The position numbers were made by a program, and so were the translations under genes. From a virus, in the IMG/VR virus record IMGVR_UViG_3300044957_000763, positions 248,001-312,000 of that record: a DNA stretch of 64,000 nucleotides; one strand, written 5' to 3'. This document shows positions 8,439 to 63,714 of this stretch, piece after piece; within the stretch, counting starts at the first letter, position 1; each line of letters opens with the position of its first letter. Under the pieces are notes generated by a model. The model worked only from the letters and a program-made list of their open reading frames with translations, did not search any database and was not told where the DNA came from.

Positions 8439-8513
8439 TGGCTCCCCGAGGAGGATTCGAACCGCCTTCTGGACGTTCAAAGCGTCCTATCCTAGCCAAT
8501 AGACGACCGGGGA
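8439..8513 (-). tRNA. tRNA-Gln (UUG)
   Basis: Cloverleaf read on the minus strand: acceptor TCCCCGG/TCGGGGA (one G-U), D-arm containing TTGGCTAG, anticodon stem GGACG/CGTCC with loop CTTTGAA (anticodon UUG, normal U33), T-loop TTCGAAT, discriminator G73 and encoded CCA. U1-A72 and G73 match known glutamine identity elements. The T-stem has one mismatch. Confidence 0.9.
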
Positions 8514-8516
8514 GTA

Positions 8517-8591
8517 TGGCACCCAACCAAGGATTCGAACCTCGCTCTCGTGGTCCAGGGCCACGCGTCACTACCGCTAGACTAGTTGGGT
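8517..8591 (-). tRNA. tRNA-Gln (CUG) with C33
   Basis: Perfect 7-bp acceptor ACCCAAC/GTTGGGT, 3-bp D-stem GTC/GAC, anticodon stem CGTGG/CCACG with loop CCCTGGA, T-loop TTCGAAT, G73 and encoded CCA. The anticodon position reads CUG (Gln). Position 33 is C instead of the near-universal U, which is unusual, and the first pair is A1-U72 rather than U1-A72. Confidence 0.85.
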
Positions 8592-8594
8592 GTT

Positions 8595-8687
8595 TGGCTG
8601 CCGCTCCAGGGCTCGAACCTGGAAATCCATTCTGCATGGTCTTCTCGTTCAAAGCGAGAGATGTTCCCTAAATTACACTAAGCGGCA
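8595..8687 (-). tRNA. tRNA with UUG (Gln) anticodon and long variable arm
   Basis: Acceptor TGCCGCT/AGCGGCA, D-stem GTGT/ACAT with GG in the loop, anticodon stem TCTCG/CGAGA with loop CTTTGAA (UUG), T-arm CCAGG-TTCGAGC-CCTGG, G73 and encoded CCA. Between anticodon arm and T-arm lie about 20 nt with a CCAT/ATGG stem, a class II variable arm as in Leu, Ser or bacterial Tyr tRNAs. A Gln anticodon on a class II body is not expected; U1-A72 and G73 agree with Gln identity. Confidence 0.82.
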
Positions 8688-8721
8688 ATGCTGGTTTGTT
8701 GTGTGGGAAGCGCTGCTGTCT

Positions 8722-8748
8722 AACGTTTGCTGTTATTTTGCGAACGTT
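8722..8748 (-). promoter_or_regulatory. Hairpin between leader ORF and tRNA cluster
   Basis: AACGTTYGC inverted repeat (8 of 9 pairs) with a 9-nt loop, located after the Gln-rich leader ORF and just before the tRNAs. No U-run follows, so it is not a simple terminator. It may be a processing or regulatory structure. Confidence 0.4.
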
Positions 8749-8779
8749 GTCGTGAGCTTGGCAGTATATTGCGTCAGCA

Positions 8780-8884
8780 TCACGCGACAGAGCGCGTGCG
8801 TTGCTGTTGTTGCTGGCGCACAGCAAGGATGCCGAGGGTGGAGGCCTTCGGTGAGCTGGTTCTGACTGTGTATGTCTTGCTCAT
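8780..8884 (-). CDS. Leader peptide with five consecutive Gln codons, 34 aa
   Basis: ATG with an AAGGA ribosome-binding site about 8 nt upstream. It encodes 34 residues including Q24-Q28 (codons CAG CAA CAA CAG CAA at 8801-8815), then RTRSVA and stop. A CACGCG/CGCGTG hairpin begins right after the Gln codons and overlaps the stop. It lies in the leader of three Gln-anticodon tRNAs, as amino-acid leader peptides do in attenuation systems. A control role is inference. Confidence 0.5.
   Translation of the reverse strand: MSKTYTVRTSSPKASTLGILAVRQQQQQRTRSVA
8781..8798 (-). promoter_or_regulatory. Hairpin directly after the Gln codon run
   Basis: CACGCG-6 nt-CGCGTG, 6-bp perfect stem. A ribosome held at the Gln codons (8801-8815) would cover its 5' arm, so its folding could report Gln-tRNA charging. 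Confidence 0.4.
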
Positions 8885-8909
8885 GTTAGTTTTCCTTGCG
8901 TTAATCAAG

Positions 8910-8963
8910 GCGAATCGGATATAAACTTGTCTCTCTCAGACTTGTTACTTATAGTCGATTCGC
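8910..8963 (-). promoter_or_regulatory. Inverted repeat in the tRNA leader
   Basis: GCGAATCG (8910-8917) and CGATTCGC (8956-8963), 8-bp perfect inverted repeat extendable by further pairs. One arm lies inside the 8-codon mini-ORF, the other about 12 nt upstream of the ribosome-binding site of the Gln-rich leader ORF. Confidence 0.4.
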
Positions 8964-8971
8964 TTTGACAT
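8945..8971 (-). CDS. Eight-codon mini-ORF at the start of the tRNA leader
   Basis: ATG placed 4 nt after the TATAAT box, encoding MSKRIDYK and a stop. It fits the leaderless pattern of the window and its codons include one arm of the 8910-8963 inverted repeat, so its translation could affect leader folding. Confidence 0.3.
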   Translation of the reverse strand: MSKRIDYK

Positions 8972-8975
8972 TGTT

Positions 8976-8981
8976 ATTATA
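8976..8981 (-). promoter_or_regulatory. -10 box of the tRNA-Gln transcript
   Basis: TATAAT on the minus strand, the only good -10 upstream of the three tRNAs besides a weaker TATACT near 8765-8770. It would give a leader of about 280 nt. The 8690-9036 interval has no other gene. Confidence 0.55.
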
Positions 8982-9036
8982 CCACGTTTTGACGAGTAAA
9001 ACCTGTTTTTGTTCCAAAAAGGTAAAAAAGTCTGAT

Positions 9037-11198: not shown

Positions 11199-12011
11199 CT
11201 ATCCCATTGCTTCCATTTCTTTCTTGAATGCTCGGTTTGCGGCACTCGAGAATATGCCAATGTAGATTGACATAAATGCGATTTCAGCAAAGATAAACAC
11301 CATTGCCAGGATTTTGCCAGGTATTGTGATGGGGAACAGGTCTCCGTACCCGGTGGTTGATGCGGTGACAACTGAATACCAAAAGCCATCGAACACCCTG
11401 ACATATTTGTCTGGTTGTGCAAACTTTTCTATTTCGTAAATCAGCGCCCCAAACAAGGCAATAATACCAAGGTTGAATGCAAAGATTTGACCAATCATTT
11501 GTTTGCCTTTCCAGATTTCTGTGATAAGTTGTTGCGCTTTGGGGCTGTATCGGTAGAATTTCAAAACGCTAACAATCCTCATAGCGCGAACTGCCCCCAG
11601 CCACGAAGCTGGTACAAAAAACCCTAACCAAAATGGCAATATAGACATCAGGTCAATGATTGCGGTGAGTTTTCGCGGCCACATGCGCGGATTACTACTG
11701 TTTTTCCATCGCACGAAGTATTCAATGGTGAAGACACACGCGATAAACCTTTCCACCCACAAGAAGAATATAGGTGACTCTAGTGAGTGTGCAGTGCGAT
11801 ATACGTCAGTTTCAACAACATAGCATCCTAATCTGACAAACACTAGCACCAGGATGAATCGTTCAATCCACCAGCTTAATGGTTGTCCGCGCATGCTTCT
11901 GGCAAGTGCGCCTATGGGCGCAAGTGTAAGGTCGCTTACGACATTTCCAACTGTTTGAATGCCGCCTACGATTCCTAATGGTTCCGTCGAATCATCTATG
12001 ATTTTAGGCAT
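11199..12011 (-). CDS. Voltage-gated potassium channel
   Basis: A 270-aa six-helix ion channel. Selectivity filter TTGYGD at about residue 220 within a standard pore loop, followed by the last helix. Voltage sensor: WLGAVRAMRIVSVLKFYRY (about 140-160) places regularly spaced Arg/Lys in S4, and S2/S3 contain acidic partners (IEYFVRW, IIDLMSILPF). Forms tetramers that conduct K+ across the inner membrane. There is no cytoplasmic RCK domain. The start overlaps the upstream HisRS-like gene by 8 nt. K+ channels are known in chloroviruses but are rare in phages; a role in membrane potential during infection or against superinfection is inferred. Confidence 0.92.
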   Translation of the reverse strand: MPKIIDDSTEPLGIVGGIQTVGNVVSDLTLAPIGALARSMRGQPLSWWIERFILVLVFVRLGCYVVETDVYRTAHSLESPIFFLWVERFIACVFTIEYFVRWKNSSNPRMWPRKLTAIIDLMSILPFWLGFFVPASWLGAVRAMRIVSVLKFYRYSPKAQQLITEIWKGKQMIGQIFAFNLGIIALFGALIYEIEKFAQPDKYVRVFDGFWYSVVTASTTGYGDLFPITIPGKILAMVFIFAEIAFMSIYIGIFSSAANRAFKKEMEAMG

Positions 12012-12678
12012 TGTTTTTATCCTCGAGTTGGGTCAACCTGGTCATGAACCGGTCGATTCCAATTGCAAATCCTATTCCTTCGGCATAGGCCCCACCGCCA
12101 ACGATTTGACCTTGTGCGCCCATGTCTGGGATTGAGATTTCAAAACCGTTTCCTGTATAGTATGACAGACCACGAGATGCCGCTGAATCAATCACCAGAA
12201 TGTTTTCTGGCACAAATGCGACCAGCATGCTTTTGGCCATTGCAATCATCTCATCAATGTAGTCTTTTCTAGGATTAAGTACCTCTACTCCGAATTGAGA
12301 AAACTCTCGGTATCGTCCGTCTTGAGGTTGTTCATAGCGCCAGCATCGGACGTCGTAGAACATTTTAACGTCCTTGTCAAAGCGATATTGTTGAGCAATC
12401 AACTGACACGTTGCCGTGCCCTCTGGTCTTAGACACAATGCGCGACCTTTCTTGTCTGGGAATCGGTACATTTGTCTTTCGACCAATTCCGGTCCCACTT
12501 TATCCAGGTACACTTCTTCTTTCTCGATTGAAGGAAGGATGATTTCTTTGTATCCGTATCCCAGTGCAATATCTGCCCAAGTATTGACAATCTTTCGCCT
12601 AAGCTCTGCTGTTGAACCGTACAGTATACGAGTGCCCTTGACTTGTTTTTCGCCTAGTTTGATTTCTCCATCTATCAT
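12004..12678 (-). CDS. Truncated histidyl-tRNA-synthetase-like protein
   Basis: Class II aminoacyl-tRNA synthetase core of about 224 aa (frames extend to starts at 12723 and 12804). It has motif 1 region KQVKGTRILYG, motif 2 with RCWRYEQPQDGRYREF, the histidine-binding motif LSYYTGNGFEI, and motif 3 GFAIGIDR. Normal HisRS is about 420 aa; here the roughly 100-residue insertion between motif 2 and the histidine motif and the C-terminal anticodon domain are missing. It could activate His without recognising the tRNA anticodon, like HisZ or other HisRS paralogues, or act as a tRNA or nucleotide sensor. The start is uncertain: a TATTAT box at 12714-12719 favours 12678. Confidence 0.75.
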   Translation of the reverse strand: MIDGEIKLGEKQVKGTRILYGSTAELRRKIVNTWADIALGYGYKEIILPSIEKEEVYLDKVGPELVERQMYRFPDKKGRALCLRPEGTATCQLIAQQYRFDKDVKMFYDVRCWRYEQPQDGRYREFSQFGVEVLNPRKDYIDEMIAMAKSMLVAFVPENILVIDSAASRGLSYYTGNGFEISIPDMGAQGQIVGGGAYAEGIGFAIGIDRFMTRLTQLEDKNNA

Positions 12679-12712
12679 TGCGGTACCACTTGCGTTTTCA
12701 TGCGCTTTGTGC

Positions 12713-12718
12713 GATAAT
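12713..12718 (+). promoter_or_regulatory. -10 box upstream of the Ser/His/Gly-rich gene
   Basis: GATAAT with a leader of about 36 nt to the ATG at 12761 and a GGAG at 12745-12748 about 13 nt before the ATG. It overlaps a minus-strand TATTAT for the divergent HisRS-like gene. Confidence 0.45.
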
Positions 12719-12760
12719 ACCATACGTAAGGCAAAAAATGCCACGGAGAAAAAATCAAGA

Positions 12761-13331
12761 ATGTCGTATTTCAGTAAAATTTGGAACAGGTGGTTCGGTC
12801 GCAAATCGTCTGGTTCTGTTTCGTCTCAATCAACAACAGTTTCTACATCATCTAATGTGGATACGCTAAATGTAAGCACATCGCCCTCGAGTCCACAAAC
12901 CAATAGCAAAATACGCACTGCGTCACGAGGTCAAAGTGGTGCAGGTTATAGCGGCGAATCATCCGCTTCATACGTTGACCCTGCAACTGTAATCATGGTT
13001 GCTAATAATTACAGTGACCCTAGTCCAGCGCACACAGAAGAACAGCGAGTGTCTTCCGGCGAACCTTCACCCTATCTTGCGCCATATGAGGCCCATGAAC
13101 AATACTATCATGACTCGTCCGGTTCGTCACATCGAAATAGTGACAACAGTAGTCATGATTCCAGCTATGGCCATCACGAGTCAAAGCTATAGCCATCACG
13201 ATTCTGGTAGCAGCTATCACGAGTCAAGCTATAGCCATCACGATTCTGGTAGCAGCCATCACGATTCTGGCAGTAGTTATAGCTCAGACTCTGGCGGTGG
13301 TTGTGACGGTGGCGGTGGCGGTGGCGACTAA
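12761..13331 (+). pseudogene. Ser/His/Gly-rich low-complexity protein with a +1 frameshift
   Basis: The first frame (12761-13192) gives 143 aa: a short basic start (MSYFSKIWNRWFGRK), a long Ser/Thr-rich stretch, then HDSS/HHES repeats. It stops at TAG 13190-13192. The next frame continues the same repeat and ends in a Gly/Asp/Cys-rich tail (about SDSGGGCDGGGGGGD) at 13331, as is typical of such proteins. The break is one extra A: GAGTCAAAGCTATAG at 13178-13192 versus GAGTCAAGCTATAG in the next repeat (13221-13234). Removing that A gives one 189-aa protein. It may be a true mutation, a sequencing error or programmed frameshifting. Function unknown. Confidence 0.65.
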
Positions 13332-15821: not shown

Positions 15822-17501
15822 CTACATACTGTCTGGCATAGAAACCCCAAGGATGCCACCAACCAGAGACAGTGTTTGCTTTGTTAATTGCACAATTTGC
15901 AATCGGGCATAAGTTTGTTCCGGTTCGTTTTCTTGGATAACTTTACAGTTTTCATAGAATTCGTGAAACATCTTTGATAGCTCTACGGCAAAGTGCGCCA
16001 ATTGATGAACACTGCATGTCTCGGCGCATTTGTGAACCTCATCATTTAGCGATAGACACTTGACAATCAGCTTGTTTTCTTGAATGGTCAACTTGTGATT
16101 CCAGTCAAATTCAACATGCTGCGACGGTGCTTTGGCCAAGATTGACGCACATCGCGCATGGGCATACTTGACATAGAAACAAGGGTTGTCTTGCGCTTGC
16201 TTAACTGCAAGTCCTATATCAAAGTCCATGTGCTTGCTGGCAGAAACATACAGGTAGAAGAATCGCACCACGTCTTTTGCAGTGTCGAAATCTGACCCAA
16301 GTTCTTGCGCAACCTCGTTAATCAAATCAACCAGGGTATACAAGTTGCCATCTCGCTTTCGCATTAACACAGGCTGACCTTCTTTGATAAATCGCACAGC
16401 CTGGAAAATCACAACATTGAGCGATTCTGGGTTATGACCAAGTGCAGCCACACCTGCCTTTAATCGCGGAATGTAACCATGATGGTCTGGTCCAAACAAG
16501 TCAACCACATGCTGGTTACCTCGAGCGTATTTGTCGTGATGATAACTGATGTCACTTGCGGCATATGTCATTCGTCCGTCTGACCGCACTAGAACTCGGT
16601 CGTCGGAATCTCCGTACTGTTTGGTCAATAACCACGTTGCGCCATCAATTTTTGCAGATTGGCCACTGTCTTGAAGGTGTTGTAATGTGACACCCACCTT
16701 ACCAGACTCAATCATCGCCTGCTCACTGACCCACATGTCGAACTCAACTCCGAACTGAGCGAGTTCTTGTTTCTGATTGTCAATCATCATTTGTTGTGAG
16801 GTTGATTGATACCAATTCGTGTCGGCGTTTATTAAGTGCGCCGCATCGTACATTGATACCAGCACACTTGCAATGCCCTCAACGTATTCTCCTTTGTATC
16901 CATTTTCAGGCATGTCGTAAGACATACCAAGTAAATTGAACACATGGTGCTTCACGCTTTCGGAAAACAGTCGCATTTGCTCGCTGTTGACACCATCATT
17001 GATGTAATACTCTCGTGTCACATTGTGACCAATCATAGTCAAGACTCGAGACAGCACATCACCAATAGCAGCGCCTCGGGCAGCGGCTACCGTAATCGGT
17101 CCGTTTGGGTTGACCGAAACATACTCAACACTATAGCTCTCAGGTTGTTTGGTGCTTGATATTGTTTCCCCACCAAGTGCGCTTTGTGTTGCGTGTTGCA
17201 ATAGTGTCGTGTCTACTTTGACGTTGAGAAACCCTGGCTTAGACCATATAAACGTCAAACCCTGCTCTTCAAGACCGGCGAAGCCTTTGGTCTGGTTAAT
17301 TGCATGGAACACACCATAACTGTCGGTGCCAGAGATTTTAGCTGCCCGCATACAAAATGTTGTGGTGTAATCATATTCTATATTAGATGCTGATGGCTGA
17401 AGGTCTATTGGAATAGACAACAACGAATCATGCAACAATCCTGCAATCACAGTCTGTTCGACGGCGTGTTCAATATGTTTTTCAATATCCAGTTGCAACA
17501 T
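15822..17501 (-). CDS. Arginyl-tRNA-synthetase-like protein lacking HIGH histidines
   Basis: A 559-aa, essentially full-length ArgRS relative. It has the family's VEYVSVNPNGP...ARGAAIGD block, YINDGVNSEQ, the GHDRVLVRSDG-like and HHDKYARG region, a CRARF-like DALR end (RLQIVQLTKQTLSLVGGILG) and NDNPCFYVKYAHAR-like segment. In normal ArgRS the first block reads GP-L-H-V-G-H-GR; here it is GPITVAAAR, so both HIGH histidines are gone. The KMSK region is MRKRDGNLYTLVDL. ATP activation is therefore doubtful, and the protein may instead bind tRNA-Arg or act as a decoy. Leaderless: TAGAAT at 17508-17513, 6 nt before the ATG. Confidence 0.85.
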   Translation of the reverse strand: MLQLDIEKHIEHAVEQTVIAGLLHDSLLSIPIDLQPSASNIEYDYTTTFCMRAAKISGTDSYGVFHAINQTKGFAGLEEQGLTFIWSKPGFLNVKVDTTLLQHATQSALGGETISSTKQPESYSVEYVSVNPNGPITVAAARGAAIGDVLSRVLTMIGHNVTREYYINDGVNSEQMRLFSESVKHHVFNLLGMSYDMPENGYKGEYVEGIASVLVSMYDAAHLINADTNWYQSTSQQMMIDNQKQELAQFGVEFDMWVSEQAMIESGKVGVTLQHLQDSGQSAKIDGATWLLTKQYGDSDDRVLVRSDGRMTYAASDISYHHDKYARGNQHVVDLFGPDHHGYIPRLKAGVAALGHNPESLNVVIFQAVRFIKEGQPVLMRKRDGNLYTLVDLINEVAQELGSDFDTAKDVVRFFYLYVSASKHMDFDIGLAVKQAQDNPCFYVKYAHARCASILAKAPSQHVEFDWNHKLTIQENKLIVKCLSLNDEVHKCAETCSVHQLAHFAVELSKMFHEFYENCKVIQENEPEQTYARLQIVQLTKQTLSLVGGILGVSMPDSM

Positions 17502-60850: not shown

Positions 60851-61299
60851 TTGAGAACTACAGAAAAAACAATTATGTATGACGCATATCACGCATACCA
60901 ATATGCACTGGATGTAATCAAAGACCGATGGCTGGAGGCCGAACCTATCATAATGAAGGATGCTGAATACGCATACTTATACGCAAAAGAAGTAATCAAA
61001 GGACGATGGCCGGTAGCAGAACCAACTATCCAGCAGGATGCTGAATTTGCATACTACTACGCACAGAGAATCATCAAAGGACGCTTTCTGGCAGCCGAAC
61101 AAACCATCCTGCAGAATGCTGAATACATGCAACAATACACTGACCATTTCTTCCCATACACAAAAGTTGTCACAAAGAGAAAAATTAATGATGATTGGCT
61201 ATGGGAAAAAAGCGGCGCAATAGGATGCTTTGCACCAGAAGAATGTTCAAAATTAAAATCAGCATTCTAGATGCTATACTAGAAACAGAAGTATGTTGA
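60851..61299 (+). pseudogene. 26-residue-repeat protein, three repeats, C-terminal frameshift
   Basis: TTG start (an ATG at 60875 is possible). Three helical repeats (consensus VIKGRWPEAEPxIxQxAxYAYxYAxx), then the shared cap FFPYTKVVTK, WLWEKSGAIGCFAPEE. The frame ends at 61270 after SKLKSAF. In the paralogues this region reads EEMFKTKTSLLDAILETEVC; here one A is missing at about 61243 (GAAGAATG versus GAAGAAATG), and the lost tail is readable in the next frame up to TGA at 61297-61299. It may still yield a 139-aa protein without the tail. Confidence 0.7.
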
Positions 61300-62048
61300 C
61301 AATTACAAAAGACACTACACCAAAAGAAGCATACTTATACGCAAAAGACGTCATCAAAGGACGTTGGCCGGAGGCCGAATCAATCATCCAGCAGGATGTA
61401 AAATACACATACTTATATGCACGATACCTAATCCCAGGACGTTGGCTGGAAGCCGAACCTATTATCCTGCAGGATGCTGAATATGCATGCTTGTACGCAG
61501 AATACGTCATCAAAGGTCGTTGGCCGGAGGCCGAACCAACCATCCTGCAGGATGCTGAAGAAGCATTCTACTACGCACGTAACGTCATCAAAGGACGTTG
61601 GCCAGAGGCCGAACAAACTATTCAGCAGAATGCATATTACGCATACTGCTACGCACGAGACGTAATCAAAGGTCGCTGGCCGGAGGCCGAACCAATCATC
61701 CAGCAGGATGCACAATACGCATACGAATACGCACGAGACGTAATCAAAGGTCGCTGGCCGGAGGTCGAACCTATTATCCTGCAGGATGCTGAATATGCAT
61801 GCTTGTACGCAGAATACGTAATCCAAGACCGTTGGCCGGAGGCCGAACCAACCATCCTGCAGAATGCTGAATACATGCGTCAATACATCGCCCATTTCTT
61901 CCCATACACAAAAGTTGTTACAAAAGAACAAATTAATGATGATTGGCTATGGAAAAAAAGCGGCGCAATAGGATGCTTCGCACCAGAAGAAATGTTCAAA
62001 ACAAAAACCAGCCTGCTAGATGCTATACTAGAAACAGAAGTATGTTGA
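61293..62048 (+). CDS. 26-residue-repeat protein, seven repeats
   Basis: A 251-aa paralogue starting MLTITKDTTPKEAYLYA, with seven repeats of the WPEAEP type, then the cap (FFPYTKVVTKEQINDDWLW, CFAPEEMF) and tail KTKTSLLDAILETEVC. Each repeat should form a helix-turn-helix pair, together an alpha-solenoid. Similar repeats occur in other phage proteins; their function is unknown, binding is likely. The start overlaps the degraded tail of the previous copy, and TATACT in the tail codons (61275-61280) could drive it. Confidence 0.85.
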   Translation: MLTITKDTTPKEAYLYAKDVIKGRWPEAESIIQQDVKYTYLYARYLIPGRWLEAEPIILQDAEYACLYAEYVIKGRWPEAEPTILQDAEEAFYYARNVIKGRWPEAEQTIQQNAYYAYCYARDVIKGRWPEAEPIIQQDAQYAYEYARDVIKGRWPEVEPIILQDAEYACLYAEYVIQDRWPEAEPTILQNAEYMRQYIAHFFPYTKVVTKEQINDDWLWKKSGAIGCFAPEEMFKTKTSLLDAILETEVC

Positions 62049-62485
62049 CAATTACAAAAGACACTACACCAGAAGAAGCATACGCACACGCACTTAACGT
62101 AATCCAAGACCGCTGGCCGGAGGCCGAACCAATCATCCAACAAAACAGGGAGTATGCATACTACTACGCAAACGGCGTCATCAAAGGACGTTGGCCGGAA
62201 GCCGAACCAACTATCATGCAGAATTCAAAATACGCATTGTGTTACGCAACAGACGTAATCCAAGACCGTTGGCCGGAGGCCGAAGCAACCATCCAACAGG
62301 ATGCATATTATGCGCGGCACTACACTGAACATTTCTTCCCAGGAATAAAAGTTGTTACAAAACAACAAATTAACAATAATTGGTTATGGGAGAAAAATGG
62401 CGCAATAGGATTTTTTGCACCAAAAGAACTCTTCAAACCAACAACCAGCATTCTAGATACTATACTAGAAACAGAAGTATGTTGA
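62042..62485 (+). CDS. 26-residue-repeat protein, three repeats
   Basis: A 147-aa paralogue with three repeats, cap (FFPGIKVVTKQQINNNWLW) and tail TTSILDTILETEVC. The ATG overlaps the stop of the preceding copy (ATGTTGA). Short version of the family. Confidence 0.82.
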   Translation: MLTITKDTTPEEAYAHALNVIQDRWPEAEPIIQQNREYAYYYANGVIKGRWPEAEPTIMQNSKYALCYATDVIQDRWPEAEATIQQDAYYARHYTEHFFPGIKVVTKQQINNNWLWEKNGAIGFFAPKELFKPTTSILDTILETEVC

Positions 62486-63714
62486 CAATTACAGAAAACA
62501 CCACACCAAAAGAAGCATACTGCTACGCACGAGACGTCATCAAAGGACGCTGGCCAGAGGCCGAATACATCATCCAGCAGGATGTACAACACGCATACTT
62601 CTACGCACTTAACGTCATCAAAGGACGCTTTCTGGAAGCCGAACCAACTATCCAGCAGAATGCACAATACGCATACGAATACGCACGAGACGTAATCAAA
62701 GGCCGCTGGGAAGAAGCTGAACCAGCCATCCAGCAGTGTAACGAGTGTGCATGCGCCTACGCACACGATGTAATCCAAGCCCGCTTCTTAGCGGCCGAAC
62801 CAACTATTCAACAGTCTGCATATTACGCATACGAATACGCAAAAGACGTAATCAAAGACCGCTGGCCAGAAGCAGAACCAGCCATTCTGAAAAGTGCAAA
62901 ATATGCATACTTATACGCATATGAAATCCTTGAAAACCGCTGGCCGGAGGCCGAATCAATCATCCAGCAGGATGCTGAATATGCATGTTGTTACGCACGC
63001 AACCTAATCGAAGACCGATGGTTAGAAGCCGAACCAACCATCCAGCAGGATGCAAAAGAAGCATACTTATACGCATTTAACATCATCAAAAACCGTTGGC
63101 CGGAGGCCGAATCAACCATCCAGCAGGATGCAAAATACGCATGCTTATACGCAGAATACCTAATCCAAGACCGTTGGCCGGAGGCCGAACCTATCATCCA
63201 GCAGAATGCAAAATGCGCATACAAATATGCACTGAACGTAATCCAAGACCGATGGCCGGAGGCCGAACCAATCATCCAACAAAACAGGGAGTATGCATAC
63301 TACTACGCAAACGACGTCATCAAAGGACGTTGGCCGGAGGCCGAACACATCATTCAGCAGAATTCAAAATACGCATACTACTATGCACGAGACGTAATAC
63401 AAGACCGATGGCTGGAGGCCGAACCGACCATCCGAAAGAATGCATTTTACGCATACTGCTACGCACGAGACGTAATCAAAGACCGCTTCCTAGCAGCCGA
63501 ACTAACTATCCAGCAGAGCGCCGAATACACGCAACAATACACTGACTGCTTCTTCTCAGGAACAAAAGTTGTTACAAAACAACAAATTAACGATGATTGG
63601 CTATGGGAGAAAAAGGGCGCAATAGGATTTTTTGCACCAGAAGAAATGTTCAAAACAAAAACCAGCATTCTAGATGCTATACTCCAAGAAAGTCCGCAAT
63701 GGGCCAACATATAA
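62479..63714 (+). CDS. 26-residue-repeat protein, thirteen repeats
   Basis: A 411-aa paralogue with thirteen repeats, the longest copy. Some units vary (RFLEAEP, RFLAAEL, RWEEAEP). It ends with the cap FFSGTKVVTKQQINDDWLW and tail KTSILDAILQESPQWANI, so the tail differs after LDAIL. The start overlaps the previous stop. Confidence 0.85.
   Translation: MLTITENTTPKEAYCYARDVIKGRWPEAEYIIQQDVQHAYFYALNVIKGRFLEAEPTIQQNAQYAYEYARDVIKGRWEEAEPAIQQCNECACAYAHDVIQARFLAAEPTIQQSAYYAYEYAKDVIKDRWPEAEPAILKSAKYAYLYAYEILENRWPEAESIIQQDAEYACCYARNLIEDRWLEAEPTIQQDAKEAYLYAFNIIKNRWPEAESTIQQDAKYACLYAEYLIQDRWPEAEPIIQQNAKCAYKYALNVIQDRWPEAEPIIQQNREYAYYYANDVIKGRWPEAEHIIQQNSKYAYYYARDVIQDRWLEAEPTIRKNAFYAYCYARDVIKDRFLAAELTIQQSAEYTQQYTDCFFSGTKVVTKQQINDDWLWEKKGAIGFFAPEEMFKTKTSILDAILQESPQWANI

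Follow-up and report, generated by a model that had tools for sequence, protein, structure and literature searches.

The window analysed here is a 64,000-nucleotide stretch of a phage record of 478,840 bp (IMG/VR), and the feature under study is a leader of ~280 nt on its minus strand, upstream of three tRNA genes with Gln anticodons. The elements of this leader and its operon are the following.

8976..8984, minus strand: extended -10 promoter element TGGTATAAT, read from the sequence; the -35 is poor and there is no experimental start
8905..8968, minus strand: long 5' hairpin of the leader transcript, from folding
8893..8897, minus strand: Shine-Dalgarno (SD) AAGGA, 8 nt before the ATG of the Gln leader ORF
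8780..8884, minus strand: Gln leader ORF of 34 aa, MSKTYTVRTSSPKASTLGILAVRQQQQQRTRSVA and a stop codon, a short SD-led ORF between the promoter and the tRNA genes; translation inferred
8801..8815, minus strand: five consecutive Gln codons, CAG CAA CAA CAG CAA, read from the sequence; proposed stalling site
8786..8795, minus strand: 5' arm of the long-range stem, in the last ORF codons, past the Gln run
8781..8798, minus strand: first hairpin of the initial annotation, possible alone; P 0.00 in the full leader
8722..8748, minus strand: hairpin inside a three-way structure (second hairpin of the initial annotation); P 0.96
8710..8720, minus strand: 3' arm of the long-range stem, from folding
8595..8687, minus strand: tRNA-Gln (TTG), from the tRNA search and Rfam tRNA; long variable arm, T1-A72, G73
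8517..8591, minus strand: tRNA-Gln (CTG), from the tRNA search and Rfam tRNA
8439..8513, minus strand: tRNA-Gln (TTG), from the tRNA search and Rfam tRNA

Transcription of the Gln operon is predicted to start near 8970, and the first tRNA begins 92 nt past the stop codon of the leader ORF. That tRNA (8687-8595) has a Gln anticodon, yet its variable arm is long and class II-like. Gln accounts for 3.9% of the phage residues, the chance of a run of at least five Gln in such a peptide is ~2.6e-6, and no QQQQ run occurs in the 64,293 aa of the other ORFs of the phage (ORFs of at least 100 aa). The T-box covariance model had no match in the window, where only tRNA families reach gathering scores.

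The leader fold was compared with dinucleotide shuffles, yielding z values of -6.4 for the whole leader, -4.0 for the part from 8906 to 8690, and -3.7 for the distal part from 8800 to 8690, with 0 of 200 shuffles as good in each case. In the predicted structure, pairing of 8795-8786 with 8720-8710 closes a three-way structure that encloses the hairpin at 8748-8722. When a ribosome was placed on the ORF, this long-range stem retained a probability of 1.00 with the A-site at or before Gln26, decreased to 0.80 at Gln27 and 0.47 at Gln28, and was absent (0.00) from Arg29 to the stop codon. The stem is thus lost at Gln27-Arg29, just past the Gln run, so the position of the run fits a switch. According to the folding, ribosome-free Gln leader RNA is already in the "on" state, and in the free RNA the UCCUUGC sequence inside the ORF may possibly pair with the AAGGA and mask it. 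Taken alone, the duplex between the ORF end and the downstream sequence was no stronger than in shuffles (p 0.37-0.46), and the transcribed strand has no intrinsic terminator (GC hairpin plus T run) from 8780 to 8688. For these two reasons we do not file the Gln leader as a classical attenuator; we regard it as attenuator-like and as one lying among attenuators within its phage, a placement inferred from sequence alone. With 16-19 C vs 9-11 G per 60 nt, the segment 8780-8690 is rich in C and poor in G, which could allow Rho-dependent termination there. With respect to the initial annotation, the three tandem Gln-anticodon tRNAs, the 34-aa ORF with a ribosome-binding site, and the five Gln codons at 8801-8815 were upheld by the sequence and the tRNA search. 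Its hairpin at 8722-8748 also held, but as part of the three-way structure, whereas that at 8781-8798 failed as a working fold, forming only in isolation. It had further named a tRNA promoter downstream of the ORF, near 8765, as a possible refutation; the candidate there, TATACT at 8768-8763, lacks a usable -35 and is absent from the promoter matches found, and such a promoter is not supported.

The phage has about 62 tRNA matches that cover every amino acid and are largely grouped by amino acid. The same layout, consisting of a promoter, a leader ORF, a hairpin or intrinsic terminator, and then tRNAs, is present in four further operons of this phage, and each sister leader is rich in the amino acids of its own operon's tRNAs. 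Only chosen stretches of the genome were read; five leaders is a lower bound, and others may have been missed. The four sister operons are arranged as follows.

Asn/His/Tyr operon: leader MRFSLNNHNGNARLTYQVNTAVHNYPNMVRANWGYQA, followed by a terminator of 14 bp and its T run; perfect 12/12 promoter TTGACA-17-TATAAT
Trp/Ala/Ile/Glu/Phe/Pro/Met operon: leader MLLLVNAMAIKESAAIFAVEPWFVVPAEHTRSRT, rich in Trp/Ala/Ile/Glu/Phe/Pro, and a terminator; perfect 12/12 promoter TTGACA-17-TATAAT
Leu/Cys/Arg operon: leader MFFATTTTIGLRGTDSLSGTLSSLRTLRDCLREQKVETKPKSRGCK, in which all six Leu codons (TTA, CTA, TTG, CTG, CTC, CTT) occur once each, then a terminator
Lys operon: leader MSIRLKRNKRNY, in which both AAG and AAA occur, followed by a hairpin whose T run is short (weaker)

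As a separate observation, the Asn/His/Tyr operon (L032; G000:C1:32300-33700, reverse strand) carries SD-led mini-ORFs, each containing cognate codons, immediately upstream of every tRNA type (oriented positions 311-334 and 559-708, and an ATG before tRNA-Tyr at 843). The mini-ORF MEDNDNN, closed by a stop codon, precedes tRNA-Asn, MDDHHHTQLNN... precedes tRNA-His, and MESDYNYTT... precedes tRNA-Tyr, with the last two reading into the tRNA sequence. If nothing detained it at the cognate codons of a mini-ORF, a ribosome would enter the tRNA and could conceivably block its maturation. In one alternative explanation, the leader acts post-transcriptionally: a ribosome passing the cognate codons without stalling would near or enter the tRNA and hinder its folding or processing, and a stalled ribosome would leave the tRNA free. 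Its support comes from the Gln leader, which has no terminator, and from the Asn/His/Tyr mini-ORFs, which abut the tRNAs and in two cases run into them. Against it, the Gln ORF ends 92 nt short of the first tRNA, the predicted cloverleaf probability of the first tRNA-Gln is unchanged by ribosome position (0.52-0.57), and plain intrinsic terminators are present in the sister operons. We consider this explanation unlikely and favor control of transcription.

Several other features of the phage were recorded in passing. A TCA-anticodon tRNA lies inside a GOLLD-like giant RNA (L037; G000:C1:232900-233900; RF02032, 112.9 bits, below gathering), and tRNAs of the amber and opal suppressor type, with anticodons CTA and TCA, occur at L034 429-504 and L037 469-543; the long ORFs of the window read in the standard code. 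The regions between tRNA clusters contain a match resembling Y RNA (YrlA) and also a repeated motif, CGGTACGAACGAGTTACGGTTATC (L032 1-88, minus strand, and L033 3939-4609). Between two Met-anticodon tRNAs, at L033 3313-3488, lies TAACGGCCCTAAGGTAGTCGAAA, which resembles a conserved 23S rRNA stretch that is also the I-CeuI site. The window encodes an arginyl-tRNA synthetase and a histidyl-tRNA synthetase-like core of 266 aa (15822-17501 / 12004-12804, minus strand), the former with GPITVAAARG at the expected place of the class I HIGH motif; inspection of the sequence upstream of the window's tRNA-synthetase genes revealed no leader ORF. Proteins built of a repeated YARDVIKGRWPEAEPIIQQDA unit are encoded at 61293-63714 of the window.

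Cognate leaders were also found in three published giant phages, namely Salicola phage SCTP-2 (four), Bacillus phage G (one), and Agrobacterium phage Atu_ph07 (one). The SCTP-2 leaders precede tRNAs for Asp/His/Met/Ile, Ser/Glu/Thr, Leu/Pro/Tyr/Gln, and Lys/Phe/Trp; three of these SCTP-2 leaders (gp335, gp351, and gp364) and the G leader (gp86) are annotated as hypothetical proteins without known function. Intrinsic terminators are present in the Asn/His/Tyr, Trp-to-Pro, and Leu operons, behind all four SCTP-2 leaders, and in G and Atu_ph07. The leaders were spotted by eye before the tRNA regions of 18 tRNA-bearing phages were covered by two scans, one a mechanical search for an SD-led ORF before tRNAs and the other a stricter, blind search for tRNAs with an intrinsic terminator no more than 330 nt away and an SD-led ORF ending just before that terminator. 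Most of the cognate leaders were recovered by the blind scan. For SCTP-2 leader 4 (Lys/Phe/Trp) we used the ATG ORF MINASTTNIAKSMIGKAAKVSFKGGFVWAFSFKKASGQRGFLE, picked by eye; the blind scan took a TTG ORF with the same terminator. The phage G ORF MYQNTIFITNKKSNGN was dropped as a leader because it overlaps an annotated gene. No cognate leader-terminator unit was identified in XacN1, GAP32, CBB, 121Q, CcrColossus, KVP40, Aeh1, pEa_SNUABM_9, S-CRM01, Annadreamy, PAU, Phosso, or two IMG contigs, and the phages without a cognate leader are all smaller except Phosso (469 kb, similar size). The blind-scan matches in S-CRM01, Annadreamy, Phosso, and the two IMG contigs were few and unenriched for their own tRNAs, and they serve as controls.

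To quantify the cognate bias, the residues of each of 11 leaders that match the amino acids of its own operon were compared with proteome expectation, and the leader-operon pairings were then permuted. The operon sets were compiled by hand from tRNA tables with a gap limit of ~600 nt; Asn, the most abundant residue of SCTP-2 leader 1, was left uncounted as no tRNA-Asn was found in the operon of that leader. The sum of z for the true pairings was 35.2, compared to a permuted mean of -1.5 (sd 5.6, maximum 27.7). This sum was reached by 0 of 200,000 permuted pairings, and 9 of the 11 leaders ranked their own operon first of 11. The results bear on the possibility that the Gln ORF encodes an ordinary small protein, or is an ORF that arose by chance and contains a Gln repeat, and that the tRNAs are constitutive or made from a promoter downstream of it. 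Consistent with that possibility, the peptide has no homologue, SCTP-2 and G leaders are annotated as hypothetical proteins, and a TATACT is present at 8768-8763. The permutation result, the absence of any other QQQQ run in the phage, and the lack of a usable -35 for the TATACT all speak against it, and we judge it very unlikely.

Folding with the ribosome set codon by codon on the leader, at varied footprint sizes, was used to follow the terminators of the other leaders. The terminator probability of the Lys leader stayed at 0.00-0.5 as far as the last Lys codon and was 0.99 beyond it; it rose from ~0.05 to 0.96 for SCTP-2 leader 1, from 0.01-0.76 to 0.99 for SCTP-2 leader 4, from 0.46-0.85 to 0.94 for the Atu_ph07 leader, and from 0.2-0.9 to 0.98 for the G leader. 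Changing the footprint left the Lys and SCTP-2 leader 1 switches intact. Five leaders, those of the Asn/His/Tyr, Trp-to-Pro, and Leu operons together with SCTP-2 leaders 2 and 3, favor the terminator at equilibrium at every ribosome position, so their switch must be kinetic. The ORF end was complementary to the 5' arm of the terminator beyond shuffles in 8 of 10 leaders (p 0.002 for three SCTP-2 leaders, and 0.006, 0.010, 0.012, 0.028, and 0.030). The Lys duplex test was negative (p 0.84), though the Lys fold switches, and the phage G duplex was weak (p 0.056), with no clear drop in nascent RNA. In nascent RNA from which the 3' arm is still absent, the ORF end is predicted to hold the terminator 5' arm while the ribosome sits on the cognate codons and to free it afterwards (unclear for G). 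A mutually exclusive, position-dependent antiterminator shows clearly in the equilibrium folds of Lys and SCTP-2 leaders 1 and 4, is seen only in nascent RNA for the others, and is unclear for G. The switch point, when set from structure alone, comes immediately past the cognate stretch; cognate codons number 123 of the 271 ahead of it vs 10 of the 76 behind it (Fisher 7e-8; ten leaders, G excluded). The ORFs, the cognate codons, the terminators, and the complementarity are visible in the sequence.

These data also bear on whether the leaders sense translation generally, i.e., any ribosome failure or host shut-off, instead of the cognate charged tRNA. In support of general sensing, the ribosome-free RNA is already "on" in the Lys leader and SCTP-2 leader 1 as well as in Gln, unlike in trp-type attenuators. 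General sensing leaves unexplained the enrichment for the own operon's amino acids and the fact that the cognate codons end at the switch; we consider it unlikely and retain sensing of the cognate charged tRNA.

Conservation of the Gln run and stems in relatives, proposed earlier as a check, could not be assessed for close relatives because none were found. Viral-contig scans with RNA ligase, a ZIP transporter, an FtsH-like protein, and PolIII alpha revealed no close relative (in one of these scans, which covered a capped number of matches, the best identity was 37%), nor did one genome-contig scan; with tblastn in phages, PolIII alpha reached no more than 35%. The DNA polymerase III alpha gene of the phage (L041:15635-18961) has an insertion of ~110 residues (residues 437-549) that is possibly an intein. 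Searching the Gln leader DNA and peptide in phages yielded nothing informative and no peptide homologue. The codon-degenerate VRQQQQQR pattern matched 13 viral contigs, none of them near a tRNA, and relatives of phage G and SCTP-2 reached via flanking genes provided no additional leader.

We conclude that the Gln leader is likely, on non-experimental grounds, to be one of at least five ribosome-sensing leaders that tie expression of the phage tRNA operons to the supply of the same charged tRNA. In the proposed mechanism, transcription would begin near 8970 and a ribosome would translate the 34-codon leader. When charged tRNA-Gln is plentiful, the ribosome would pass the five Gln codons to the stop codon and cover the ORF end, breaking the 8795-8786/8720-8710 stem, and the transcript would fail before the tRNAs. 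When charged tRNA-Gln runs short, through cleavage by a host defence, lack of charging, or depletion, the ribosome would stall on the Gln codons, the stem would remain closed, and the three tRNA-Gln genes would be made. The failing step in the sister operons would be the intrinsic terminator, with the ORF end sequestering its 5' arm for as long as the ribosome occupies the cognate codons; for the Gln operon, which has no such terminator, Rho-dependent termination within 8780-8690 is a guess from base composition only. Stalling, termination, and the trigger are all inferred. The logic put forward in the initial annotation, a leader peptide that senses charged tRNA with tRNAs as its output, is supported by the four sister operons and the six leaders in three published giant phages, with the regulation itself still an inference; the finding is larger than was stated there, the same design being present in further operons and phages.

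The role of phage tRNA genes has been debated for decades, with codon compensation set against replacement of tRNAs cut by host defence (PMC10264068). If our reading is correct, a regulator that reads depletion of the tRNAs under its own control would show the purpose and timing of these genes, and the operon-by-operon predictions are testable in the cultured phages Bacillus phage G, Atu_ph07, and SCTP-2. A bolder interpretation, toward which we lean only slightly, is that giant phages run near-complete tRNA sets on demand, with separate leaders, each attuned to the codons of its own tRNAs, acting as a distributed sensor of missing charged tRNAs (as might follow an attack by tRNA-cleaving defences) that switches on just those replacements and the mini-ORFs forming a second layer for single tRNA species in one operon. 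The initial annotation had called such a feedback loop new for a virus, and no description of phage tRNA genes under a leader peptide or attenuation was found in the open-licence literature searched; attenuation and leader peptides are unmentioned in PMC10264068, the jumbo-phage survey PMC7824862, and the Atu_ph07 paper PMC6102473. The mechanism itself is known, and its use on tRNA genes in viruses appears to be new but is experimentally unproven.

Among related systems, phage tRNAs have been considered against tRNA-cleaving defences (van den Berg et al. 2023, PMC10264068; retron evasion, PMC11555353; PARIS, PMC12409363), where the likely benefit is replacement of cleaved host tRNAs; PMC10264068 differs from the present work in not mentioning leaders, attenuation, or promoters of phage tRNA genes. 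T-box riboswitches likewise sense tRNA charging upstream of translation-related genes, but they bind the tRNA directly and require no ORF. Rho-dependent leader-peptide control of the tnaC or mgtL type resembles the proposal for Gln in that a leader ribosome decides on continued transcription without an intrinsic terminator; the difference is that the role of Rho in the Gln leader is guessed only from its base composition. The ribosome-mediated amino-acid attenuators (trpL, hisL, leuL, thrL, and pheM/pheST for a tRNA synthetase) share the SD-led leader ORF with cognate codons, the competing pairing of ORF end and terminator 5' arm, and a switch that depends on where the ribosome stands; Rfam Thr_leader and Phe_leader even give weak matches to SCTP-2 leaders, with scores below gathering. 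The Gln leader differs from these attenuators in lacking an intrinsic terminator, and several phage leaders differ from the trp attenuator in that the ribosome-free RNA is "on". As a group, the phage leaders are distinguished by their location in phages, by a single leader often combining codons for several of the amino acids that a mixed operon serves, and by an output that consists of tRNA genes rather than biosynthesis or synthetase genes.
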